This document shows, piece by piece, positions 16,799 through 57,667 of a stretch of DNA of 64,000 nucleotides. The position numbers were made by a program, and so were the translations under genes. Location: NCBI GenBank assembly GCA_036397555.1, contig DASWIS010000008.1, positions 124,001 to 188,000 of the forward strand. The letters are read 5' to 3'. The first letter of the stretch is position 1. The number at the start of each line of letters is the position of its first letter. A model generated the notes under the pieces. It had not been told where the DNA came from. It did no database searches and saw only the letters and a program-made list of their open reading frames with translations. The DNA comes from Candidatus Zixiibacteriota bacterium. GTDB taxonomy: Bacteria > Zixibacteria > MSB-5A5 > WJJR01.

Positions 16799-17797
16799 TT
16801 AACGGCTGCCGCCGGCAGAGGTGTTCTGGACCGGGGCGGATTGCTCGGTCTCGGTCGCGGACAACAGCTTTACGGCCGCAGTCGGGGTCTCGCCCTTGCT
16901 CTCATGCTTGGCGATGTACGCTTCGGCATCGGCACGGCTCATACCGCGCGCGACACAGGCGTCGATGCAGGCCTCACGCGACGGGACCGCATTCAGGTCC
17001 ACCGCCACAGCGGCCTTGCCCGCCGACACGGCGCACTGAGCGTACTTTGCTTCCGCCTGCGAGCGTGTGAAACCATCGGCCATCAGACGGTTGAGGCACT
17101 CTTCCTTGCTGATGTTGCAGGCCTTGCCATCAGTCGCTGAGGCCAAGCTGGCGGTCGTCTTCGAACCGCTGCAGCCGGAGGCGCTGGCGGTCTGTGCATT
17201 GGCTTTCGAAGCACAGCCACTGGCGCTGGCGGTCTGCGCATTGGCTTTGGAGGCGCAACCATCAGCGCTCGCCAAGCTGGCAGTGGTCTTGGAAGCGGAG
17301 CAACCACTGGCGCTGGCAGTCTGAGCACTGGCCTTGGAGGCACAGCCATCGGCACTCGCCAAGCTGGCGTTTGCCTTGGAAGCACAACCGCTGGCGCTGG
17401 CAGTCTGAGCACTGGCCTTGGAGGCACAGCCGCTGGCGTTTGCTTGCTGGACGGCGGCGGCCTTGGAGGCACAGCCGCTGCCTTCGCTCGCGTTGGCCTG
17501 GTACACCTTGGCCTCGTTGCCGCAGCCCTTGGCAACGCATGCAGCCCATTTGGCCTCGGCATCAGCGCGCGTTAGACCATCGGCCATCAGCTTGGCAACG
17601 CACTCTTCCTTGGTGCAGGATTTTCCATCGGCGCCGACCAACTTGGCATCGGCCGAGGAAACCTGGGCGGTCGTTGCATCTTTCGATGCTTTCGCGTGTG
17701 AGTCGCAGGCGTATCCGTCGGCAATCGACAGACCGCCACCCAGCGCAACCACGGCCAACAGGGCGATGATTGTCTGGTGACGTTTCAGAAACTGCAT
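16799..17797 (-). CDS. Exported Cys/Ala/Ser-rich repeat protein
   Basis: A 332-residue exported protein of unknown function. The start at 17797 follows a strong AAAGGGAGG site and begins a clear signal peptide (hydrophobic residues 10-25). A helix-pair unit of about 30 residues occurs three times: 61-92, 227-255 and 274-297, with ECxxxLMADGxTRxxAEAK as its core in the first two. Between copies one and two lies a low-complexity array at 106-222, in which a G-C-A-S-K core returns every 14-15 residues (Cys109, 124, 138, 152, 166, 181, 195, 209). The regular cysteines suggest metal binding or disulfide cross-linking; this is inference. Confidence 0.8.
   Translation of the reverse strand: MQFLKRHQTIIALLAVVALGGGLSIADGYACDSHAKASKDATTAQVSSADAKLVGADGKSCTKEECVAKLMADGLTRADAEAKWAACVAKGCGNEAKVYQANASEGSGCASKAAAVQQANASGCASKASAQTASASGCASKANASLASADGCASKASAQTASASGCSASKTTASLASADGCASKANAQTASASGCASKANAQTASASGCSGSKTTASLASATDGKACNISKEECLNRLMADGFTRSQAEAKYAQCAVSAGKAAVAVDLNAVPSREACIDACVARGMSRADAEAYIAKHESKGETPTAAVKLLSATETEQSAPVQNTSAGGSR
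17132..17482 (-). repeat. In-gene tandem repeat of about 42 bp
   Basis: This is the DNA behind the repetitive cysteine array of the surrounding gene. Units of 42-45 bp encode variants of SGCASKANAQTASA. Unit ends alternate between QTASASG and SLASADG, suggesting that the array grew by duplication of two-unit blocks. The units remain in frame with no stop. Confidence 0.85.
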
Positions 17798-18062: not shown

Positions 18063-18770
18063 GTGCACCATGATATTACGATCCTGCTTGTAACGGCAGC
18101 CTCCATCGGGTTTATCCACACCCTCTTGGGACCCGACCATTATATCCCGTTTGTGGCCATGGCGAAATCGGGCCCATGGTCTCTGAGGAAGACCATCGCT
18201 GTCGTCTTGGTTTGCGGGTTGGGACACGTGGGCAGTTCGGTCATCATCGGCGCTCTCGGGATCGGGCTGGGCTGGGCGTTGGGCGCGATGGAAGCACTCG
18301 AAACGATGCGCGGCGATTGGGCAGCGCTGGCGCTGATCGGTTTCGGACTGGCATACATGATCTGGGGTATTCATCGCTGACTGCGTCAACATACGCACAC
18401 ACACTTCCATGTCGGTGGTGATGGGAATCCGGTTGTTCACGCACATGCTCACGTCGGCGAACACGTCCACGCCGATGCCCTCCCATACCGTTTCTCACCT
18501 TGGGCGCTGTTTGTCGTGTTCATTCTGGGGCCCTGTGAGCCATTGATCCCGCTGCTGATCATCCCGGCGTCTCAGCACAGTTGGTGGGGTGTGGCCGCCG
18601 TCATCCTGGTCTTCGGCGCAGTCACCATCATCACCATGCTGGCAATGACTTTCGCCCTCATCCACGGATTGAGTCTGATCCCGGTTCGGTCTTTTGAACG
18701 CTGGGTGTCTGCCCTGGCGGAATTTGCCCTTTTTGTTTCCGGAGCCCCGATCCGCTGGCTGGGGCTCTGA
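18063..18770 (+). CDS. TauE/SafE-NicO-like membrane transporter with an in-frame TGA
   Basis: One reading frame of 236 codons starts at GTG 18063 (GAGGA nine bases upstream) and is open to 18770 except for a TGA at 18378-18380. Both sides belong together: residues 1-105 hold three membrane helices with HTLLGPDHYIPF, and the part after the TGA has a histidine-rich loop (HTHTHFH, HAHAHVGEHVH), then FILGPCEPLIPLL and two further helices, as in UreH/NicO-type metal or anion exporters. The TGA falls just before the His loop, where as far as I recall relatives have a small residue such as Ala. Either a nonsense mutation or a recoded codon would explain it. Confidence 0.7.
18405..18426 (+). promoter_or_regulatory. 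Hairpin downstream of the in-frame TGA (possible bacterial SECIS)
   Basis: A six-base-pair stem (TTCCAT with ATGGGA, including one G-U pair) closes a ten-base loop that begins with G. The loop starts 30 bases after the TGA, within the 16-37 base range known for bacterial SECIS elements. Such short hairpins are common by chance, so this is weak support. Confidence 0.25.
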
Positions 18771-18878
18771 CGCCCCCGATTCTCCAATCCGAAGACCGGC
18801 TTGAATCAGGGCGATCAATCCGCTATCGTCGAAAGTCTGTGCCGTTTGTGGTTAGCAAAGGGCCAGAGAAAACACCGC

Positions 18879-20738
18879 ATGCCCACTGAATCCAAATCCC
18901 TCCATCCGGAAGACATCAAAGTCATCCTGGCGACCGACTGCGGTTCCACCACCACCAAGGCGATTTTGATCGAGAAGACCGGCGATGAGTATCGGCTGAT
19001 CGTCCGCGGCGAAGCTCCGACCACGGTCGAGGCGCCGTTTGAGGATGTCACGATGGGTGTTCTCAATGCCGTGGGCGAGGTCGAGGAATTGGCGGGGCGC
19101 AAGCTCCTGGACGAAAACGGCAGGATCATCAGTCCTGCCAACGGCAAGGTCGGCACCGACATCTACATTTCGACTTCATCGGCGGGCGGCGGACTGCAAA
19201 TGATGGTCGCCGGCGTCGTGCGCTCGATGACCGCCGAATCGGCCGAACGCGCCGCGTTGGGCGCCGGCTCAATCGTGATGGACGTGATCGCCTCCAATGA
19301 CCGGCGGCAGCCGCATGAGCAGATCGAACGGATCCGTCGGCTGCGTCCCGACATGATCCTGCTTTCAGGGGGCATCGACGGCGGCACCACGACGCACGTC
19401 GTCGAAATCGCCGAATTGATTGCGGCGGCCGATCCCAAGCCGCGGCTGGGCACCGGATACAAGTTGCCGGTGATCTATGCGGGCAATAAGGACGCAACCG
19501 ACGCGGTCAAAGAGACCCTGGCCGAAAAGACCGACTTGTCGGTCGTCGACAATCTGCGTCCGGTCCTCGAGCGCGAGAACCTGCTGCCGGCGCGCGAGAA
19601 AATCCATGACCTCTTCATGGAGCATGTCATGGCGCAGGCGCCCGGCTATCGCAAGCTGATGAGCTGGACCGATGCGCCGATCATGCCCACCCCGGGCGCG
19701 GTCGGCTCGATCATCAAACGGGTGTCCGAGATCGAAAACATCGAAGTGGTTGGTGTCGACATCGGCGGGGCGACCACCGATGTCTTCTCGGTTTTTCAGG
19801 GCGTGTTCAACCGCACCGTCTCGGCCAATCTCGGCATGTCGTATTCGATCTCGAATGTCTTCGCCGAATCCGGATTGCCCAATGTCATGCGTTGGGTGCC
19901 GTTTCACTTAGACGAGGGCGACCTGCGCAATCGCGTCAAAAACAAGATGATCCGTCCAACAACGATCCCGCAGATGATGGAAGAGCTGATCTTCGAGCAG
20001 GCGATTGCCAAGGAGGCGCTGCGGCTGGCGTTCATTCAGCACAAGTCGTTCGCCACAGTGCTGAAAGGGATCCAACAACAACGCACCATCGCCGATGCGT
20101 TCGAACAGACCGGATCGGGGCATACGCTGGTCAACATGATGACCCTGAATATGCTGATCGGGTCCGGCGGCGTGCTCTCGCACGCGCCGCGCCGACAGCA
20201 GGCGGCGCTCATGTTGATCGACGCGTTTGTGCCGGAGGGAATCACGCGGTTGGCGGTCGACTCGATCTTCATGATGCCCCAGTTGGGTGTCTTAGCCGAG
20301 GTCCATCCCAGGGCAGCGACCGAAGTGTTCAACAAGGACTGCCTGATTCATCTGGGCGTCTGTGTCGCCCCGGTCGGTGAATCGAAAGCGGGCAAAGGCG
20401 AAACGATGCATTACAAAATCGAACGCCCCGATGGCACGGTCGACGAAGGCACACTCGCGTTCGGCCAGATGACACTGATCCCGCTGGGGTTTGACGAGAA
20501 ATCCTCGTTGCCGATCTCCGCCAAAGCCGTTCTGGAGCCCGCGCGCGGATTCGATGTCGGAGCCGGCAGGGGGAACAAACTGGAATGCCAACTTTCCGGC
20601 GGCGTGGTCGGTATCATTCTTGACGGGCGCGGACGGCCTTTCGTCCTGCCGACCGATGACAAGGTCCGCGTCGCCAAGCTCAAAGAGTGGATGACGACGC
20701 TGGATATATATCCCGTCGAAGCATTGCAGAGATTATAG
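18879..20738 (+). CDS. MutL/GlmL-type ASKHA ATPase
   Basis: A 619-residue protein of the glutamate-mutase MutL (GlmL) family, members of the actin/HSP70 ATPase fold. Phosphate-binding loops are visible at residues 19-31 (TDCGSTTTKAIL) and near 290 (VVGVDIGGATTDVFSV), with SGGIDGGTTTHV between them. GlmL itself sits beside the B12-dependent mutase subunits MutS and MutE, but none are here. Instead the gene heads a run of envelope genes, so it more likely acts as a chaperone or energiser of that system. The ATG at 18879 is preferred over an upstream TTG. Confidence 0.85.
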   Translation: MPTESKSLHPEDIKVILATDCGSTTTKAILIEKTGDEYRLIVRGEAPTTVEAPFEDVTMGVLNAVGEVEELAGRKLLDENGRIISPANGKVGTDIYISTSSAGGGLQMMVAGVVRSMTAESAERAALGAGSIVMDVIASNDRRQPHEQIERIRRLRPDMILLSGGIDGGTTTHVVEIAELIAAADPKPRLGTGYKLPVIYAGNKDATDAVKETLAEKTDLSVVDNLRPVLERENLLPAREKIHDLFMEHVMAQAPGYRKLMSWTDAPIMPTPGAVGSIIKRVSEIENIEVVGVDIGGATTDVFSVFQGVFNRTVSANLGMSYSISNVFAESGLPNVMRWVPFHLDEGDLRNRVKNKMIRPTTIPQMMEELIFEQAIAKEALRLAFIQHKSFATVLKGIQQQRTIADAFEQTGSGHTLVNMMTLNMLIGSGGVLSHAPRRQQAALMLIDAFVPEGITRLAVDSIFMMPQLGVLAEVHPRAATEVFNKDCLIHLGVCVAPVGESKAGKGETMHYKIERPDGTVDEGTLAFGQMTLIPLGFDEKSSLPISAKAVLEPARGFDVGAGRGNKLECQLSGGVVGIILDGRGRPFVLPTDDKVRVAKLKEWMTTLDIYPVEALQRL

Positions 20739-55896: not shown

Positions 55897-56961
55897 CTAC
55901 AAAACGATCTCCAAGTGAGGTTCATCTGTAGCAAAGACCTCTCCGCAGATCGCGGCATCCTCGATTCCCATATCGATCAGGCGGTTCAGGAGCAATTGTG
56001 CCTGCCGCTCATCGATTGTAATCAGCAAACCACCGGAGGTTTGGGGATCGAACAGAATGCTTCGCTGAATCGGATCGAGCGACTCGGTAATTCTGATCTT
56101 CCCATCCAACGCTTGCGCATTCGACGCGGTGACCCCGGTTGAGGCGCCTGCGGCGATGAGTTGCTCCGAGATCGTCCAGCGGGGAATATCCGCAAATCGG
56201 AAGCGAACGCCGACACTCGATGCCTGGGCCACCTCAAATGAATGTCCCGCCAACCCGAACCCGGTGATGTCGGTGACTCCGTGTGTACCGTCGAATCCCA
56301 GCATCGCCTCACAGGCGCTCTTGTTCAATTCCGCCATCTTTTTCAGAACTGGGTGTGCGACGGCCCAATCGATCTGCTCCGCCCGCAGGCCGTTGACGAT
56401 GACGCCGGTTCCGATCCGCTTGGTGAGGATGACCACGTCACCCGGTTTGGCGCCGGCGTTTGTCTTCAAATCGGCATCCCGCACGATGCCCGTCACCGAC
56501 AAGCCATACTTCAGTTCATTGTCTTTGACTGTGTGGCCGCCGATCAGGACCGCTCCGGCAAGGGTCGTCACTTCCAATCCGCCGCGCATGATCTCGGTGA
56601 GCAACTCGCCGGCGATGCCGCGCGTCGGAAAACAACAAAGATTGAGAACCGCCTTGGGAGTGCCTCCCATGGCGTACACGTCGGAGAGCGAGTTGGCCGC
56701 GGCGATCTGGCCGTACAAGAATGGATCGTCGCACGGCGGCGTGATAAAATCCGCCGTCAACACCAGCGACAGATCAGGGCCGATGCGATACACGCCCGCG
56801 TCGTCGGATGTCCCCAATCCGACGATTACCTCGGGCGGCGATGGGACGTCCAACTCGTCTACGATGCGATGCAGGTCCACCGGACCGATTTTACCGGCTC
56901 AACCACCGGAGCGGGCAAACTGTGTAAGCTGTCCCGGCGTCGATATGCGGCATTCCGACAC
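55897..56961 (-). CDS. selD: Selenide, water dikinase, with selenocysteine at the active site
   Basis: A SelD protein making selenophosphate from selenide and ATP. The conventional frame from GTG 56880 (MDLHRIVDELDV) lacks the N-terminal active-site loop; the frame upstream reads LTQFARSGG, TGA at 56899-56901, AGKIGPVDL, exactly the family motif with Sec in place of Cys21 and Lys24 conserved. The full gene starts at GTG 56961, nine bases after GGAGG, giving 354 residues. TADFITPPCDDPF, GGTPKAVLNL and the IGGHTVKDNELKYGLSV site also fit. It is 56 bases upstream of the DUF1015 gene. Confidence 0.93.
56874..56898 (-). promoter_or_regulatory. Probable bacterial SECIS element in selD
   Basis: On the minus strand, 12 bases after the TGA, GGTCC and GGACC pair perfectly around a GGT loop (56886-56874). 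The loop begins with G and starts 17 bases after the TGA, matching the known bacterial SECIS geometry (16-37 bases, G in the first two loop positions). Confidence 0.7.
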
Positions 56962-57667
56962 TGTCACTCACCTCCTCTCCGTCTCGCGGCCGGCGCCATG
57001 GATCGACGTCGACCGGTTTTGCAAGATACGCGATCAAGTCGGTCCGAATGAGCCCCAAGTCAGGGGTCTTTTGTCTCACGCATAAGATAACGTCCCGCGC
57101 CCTGACCGGGCGCGGGACGCCACGCTGTAGGTTTCTGCCTGTTGATGATGCTCTTGTCGGACTTCCGGCACCTCCTGACCGGTGTCGATGGCGGCCACCG
57201 GTCGCTGCCGCCTTGATTTTTGTGCGGGACTTGCACGCGCCCACATGCCGTGATTCGCATGCGCACCGCACAGTTTCTATGGGAGATGATTCTGGAGAAC
57301 GCAGGCCGACGTCCGGGCGCGGTCAATGTCCCGGCACTATGGTCAGGCCCGCCCGGTACAGATACACTTGTTACGGGAACCGAAGCCGACCAGTGAGATG
57401 TCGGCGATGAGGATGTGGTATGCGATCCGCTTCATTCGATCACAACTTTCAACTCTGTAAAGTATACGCAATTGGTCCGATCTTTGGGGGATGAATCTTT
57501 GACGCCGCGATGCCCCCTTTGCCACAGCGCGCTCGTCGCAACAGGAAGGGCGGGGGTCCCCCGCCGAGCCGGAAGAGAAGCTTGGGCGGATTGGCACCGC
57601 CGTCCCGGATTTGGTATCATCCCGGCGCAGGGAAGGCAAAGCGAACGCCTGAACGCAGGAGCAACGA
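56962..57667. other. Intergenic region with hairpins, no recognised gene
   Basis: A 706-base stretch between selD and pruA. Open frames of 60-134 residues exist on both strands but look random (Arg/Pro/Ser-rich). Notable are a 12-bp perfect hairpin at 57091-57119 and a palindrome GGCGGGGGTCCCCCGCC at 57549-57565. It must contain promoters for two divergent genes; I could not assign them. No tRNA or known riboswitch was seen. Confidence 0.5.
57091..57119. repeat. Perfect 12-bp inverted repeat
   Basis: CGTCCCGCGCCC and its exact complement surround TGACC. No T-run follows on the plus strand; on the minus strand GTTATCTTATG is only weakly T-rich. Possible REP-like element or weak terminator. 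Confidence 0.6.

Follow-up and report, generated by a model that had tools for sequence, protein, structure and literature searches.

Our analysis indicates, with a probability of roughly three in four, that the transporter gene at 18063-18770 (+) is an ordinary nonsense-interrupted pseudogene of fairly recent origin and not a selenoprotein. The gene lies in the window, by which we mean the whole stretch of 64,000 nucleotides that was analysed, and the preliminary description offered two readings of its in-frame TGA. A nonsense mutation or error is supported by our findings, and a new selenoprotein is contradicted by the lack of Cys or TGA in 45 relatives and by an unconserved hairpin. The value of this result lies mainly in annotation, where an interrupted gene, rather than a selenoprotein, should be recorded.

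The interrupted gene and its predicted product

The features considered in this work are the following:

18063-18770 (+): whole interrupted gene for a His-rich DsbD_2/NicO-like membrane protein; 235 codons and a stop codon, with full-length relatives and a Pfam DsbD_2 match
18063-18380 (+): segment that should still be translated, comprising the helices that come ahead of the His-rich loop; 105 residues, ending at the TGA
18378-18380 (+): in-frame TGA, codon 106, at the end of the helix leading into the His-rich loop; almost all relatives have Ala or Gly
18405-18426 (+): candidate SECIS hairpin of 6 pairs; a chance match
18381-18767 (+): part after the TGA, the His-rich loop and remaining helices; evolving faster, when set against the first part, than in all compared relatives, with Gly220 changed to Glu and His216 to Ser

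From the GTG at 18063, which has a Shine-Dalgarno-like GAGG 10 bases upstream, the frame runs to 18767 with the TGA at 18378-18380 as its sole interruption and closes with a terminal TGA at 18768-18770; it is otherwise intact, as previously described. The 235-residue read-through protein matches Pfam DsbD_2 (PF13386) above the cut-off (E=2.4e-6). Single intact proteins of relatives cover both halves in end-to-end alignments, with 53-61% identity within the family, which agrees with the earlier view that the halves form one protein. The product therefore has the profile match and the full-length alignment expected of a DsbD_2/NicO-like protein, and what the gene lacks is an intact frame. The predicted structure is helical (mean pLDDT 80) apart from a loop of low prediction quality around residues 109-145, and codon 106 maps to where the long helix leading into this His-rich loop ends. 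A search for other copies found the gene to be single-copy in the genome. The NCBIfam search gave no real match, and solved structures, searched by sequence and by fold, contained no relative of the transporter.

Residue 106 in relatives

Intact full-length relatives number in the dozens and come from several phyla. At residue 106, the 45 distinct relatives compared (L026, the same record as L004, was taken once, and four relatives belong to the same family) carry Ala in 35 cases, Gly in 5 and Gln in 2, the rest being Val, Leu or a gap; Cys, TGA or any other stop occurs there in none of the 45. The nearest relative compared, in a set drawn from other genera, is 61% identical. One same-family relative has the codon GGA, a single base change from TGA, and no stop was found inside the gene in any of the 38 further genomes from this phylum that have a match. 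The statement in the preliminary description that relatives carry a small residue and not Cys at this site is thus borne out. It had also proposed that a sense codon for a non-Cys residue in all close relatives, together with an unconserved hairpin, would point to a nonsense mutation or an error; the homologue comparison returned this pattern, with sense codons of other residues, as expected for a nonsense pseudogene.

Constraint before and after the stop

If the nonsense mutation is real, one Gly or Ala codon of an ancestral single-copy His-rich DsbD_2/NicO-like transporter would have become TGA. Translation would end there, and the product would be limited to the helices preceding the His-rich loop, with neither that loop nor the GPCEP half being produced. 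We infer a loss of function, and the transporter is very probably not made. Relaxed constraint on the untranslated part should then allow it to evolve faster.

On a single fixed tree, branch lengths were estimated independently for the segments on either side of the His-rich loop, and the interrupted gene has the highest after/before terminal-branch ratio of 44 (1.94), a modest excess, as the next two relatives are close at 1.92 and 1.77. A tree-free ratio based on pairwise distances again places it at the top rank, at 1.32 times the family mean (bootstrap 1.11-1.59). Two conserved sites near the C-terminus are also altered, namely Gly220, conserved as Gly in 44/44 relatives and replaced by Glu in this gene, and His216, which is His in 40 of the 44 and Ser here. 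This faster evolution and the lost residues would fit relaxed constraint after a real nonsense mutation. The 129 codons after the TGA hold no further disruption, and third-position G+C remains high (0.72 in the last part, 0.71 before the TGA); decay therefore appears slight, and with the remaining frame clean the nonsense event is probably not old. The first half keeps its usual constraint on the fixed tree, and for this reason one may speculate that the short product retains some use.

The main rival is a sequencing or assembly error, a wrong base in the assembly, which comprises 35 contigs, such that the organism would have a sense codon and an intact transporter. We consider this unlikely, although a single base, in the only copy in the genome and in a frame with no other lesion, is what such an error would leave, and in-frame stops known from one sequence have been left unresolved in the literature for this reason (PMC1088965). 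An isolated base error would not, however, produce faster evolution after the TGA or the loss of Gly220 and His216. Judged from sequence comparison, these changes argue against a pure base-calling error, without proving the point, and we infer that the stop is truly in the cell's DNA.

It is very unlikely that the gene is deliberately split or leaky, with a 105-residue first part made on purpose, readthrough of the stop, or a restart at the CTG that directly follows the TGA. The break does fall between two helical halves, the first of them normally constrained, but the first ATG, GTG or TTG after the stop comes only at residue 152, which lies inside the next helix, and the CTG has no Shine-Dalgarno-like sequence nearby. 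Moreover, constraint is being lost in the half after the stop, and all relatives compared lack a stop in this gene.

Selenocysteine decoding and the candidate hairpin

The genome encodes tRNA-Sec with anticodon TCA, selA and selB, all in one cluster, and the window encodes SelD at 56002-56967 (-), so that the machinery is complete and the decoding capacity that had been deduced from selD is confirmed. The selD gene has its own in-frame TGA at 56901-56899, in the motif SGG-U-AGKIGP, at the site where SelD is known to carry Sec or Cys. Next comes a GC-rich hairpin of 5 pairs, GGUCC-GGU-GGACC, whose GGU loop starts 18 bases downstream of the TGA. This SelD is a selenoprotein of a recognised family and of an already known kind; the gene is likely to be misannotated as truncated. 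By its gene content, the organism is a selenocysteine decoder, and selenocysteine at the transporter TGA was therefore a fair hypothesis.

The hairpin noted earlier downstream of the transporter TGA exists, with a stem of 6 pairs (TTCCAT at 18405-18410, ATGGGA at 18421-18426) and a 10-base loop that begins 31 bases after the TGA. According to the bSECIS model, the loop has 3-9 bases with G in the first two positions, lies 16-37 bases from the UGA and folds at -7.5 kcal/mol or below, and some true elements fall outside these limits (PMC13188914). The earlier statement that the hairpin is within SECIS limits holds for its spacing and fails for its loop, one base over the limit, and for its energy, which is too weak at -3.8 kcal/mol (-4.7 kcal/mol in a form with a 4-base inner loop); the scoring against a bacterial SECIS model that had been proposed thus places it outside the published model. 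In the relatives, just 2-4 of the 6 pairs can form, and an Rfam scan around the gene returned neither a SECIS nor any other match above threshold. That such hairpins are common by chance, as had been cautioned, is clear from the window itself, where 551 of 2014 TGAs (27%) have a downstream stem of 6 or more pairs by the same rule, one looser than the published model. Of 150 sampled TGAs, 88 have a hairpin at least as stable and 70 satisfy the published criteria. The hairpin is a chance-level match, and because a quarter of the TGAs in the window have one like it, an isolated in-frame TGA with a hairpin is weak evidence for selenocysteine even in a Sec-decoding genome.

Prokaryotic selenoprotein searches have been built on Cys/TGA pairs (PMC1088965), and Cys homologues are said to exist for every known selenoprotein (PMC12013277). 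Here neither Cys homologues nor a TGA in more than one sequence were found, the site, at the end of a helix, holds a small residue and has no redox motif, and the family members G002 and G003, which have their own tRNA-Sec and selB, carry Ala and Gly there. Despite the complete machinery, the use of TGA rather than TAA or TAG, and the permitted spacing, it is highly improbable that SelB acts at this hairpin to have the TGA decoded as selenocysteine. A selenocysteine that arose from Ala or Gly beside a metal-binding His loop, at a site that was never Cys and with an atypical SECIS, would be a real surprise, and we give it almost no credence, as the evidence points away from it.

Genomic surroundings

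The divergent upstream neighbour (16799-17791, -) encodes a Cys-rich, probably secreted protein with ASGCASKA-type repeats and segments such as KEECVAKLMADGLTRADAEA, for which no Pfam match was found. Its homologue in L002 (146-1027, -) is 38% identical over 179 residues, a value somewhat inflated by low complexity, and stands in the same divergent arrangement with an intact transporter. That the two genes stay paired in at least one relative hints at a common function, which may be metal handling. A bacterial-like globin (PF01152; L004:72-686, -) is encoded close to a relative's intact transporter. Downstream of the interrupted gene, the large ORF at 18801-20738 (+) may encode a GlmL/MutL-type ATPase protein, which it resembles. 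A codon-usage scan of 400 kb for further genes with in-frame stops flagged three places that look like reverse-strand shadow frames of other genes; it scored the His-rich loop as non-coding, and its sensitivity is too low for estimating how often genes are interrupted.

Comparison with known systems

Like the transporter gene, the selD gene of the window combines an in-frame TGA with a downstream hairpin; it differs in belonging to a recognised selenoprotein family, in having its TGA at the known Sec/Cys position and in its closer, GC-rich hairpin. Predicted bacterial selenoprotein transporters include a mercuric transporter, YeeE/YedE and the SO_0444 Cu/Zn efflux protein (PMC13188914), with which the present gene shares a membrane transporter product, an in-frame TGA and a Sec-decoding host. 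Whereas selenoprotein families have Cys in homologues at the Sec site, the homologues of the interrupted transporter have Ala or Gly. With the DsbD_2 (PF13386)/NicO-like transporters that carry a His-rich loop, it shares the Pfam match, the length and the full-length alignment, and it departs from them in being stopped before that loop and in its altered Gly220 and His216.
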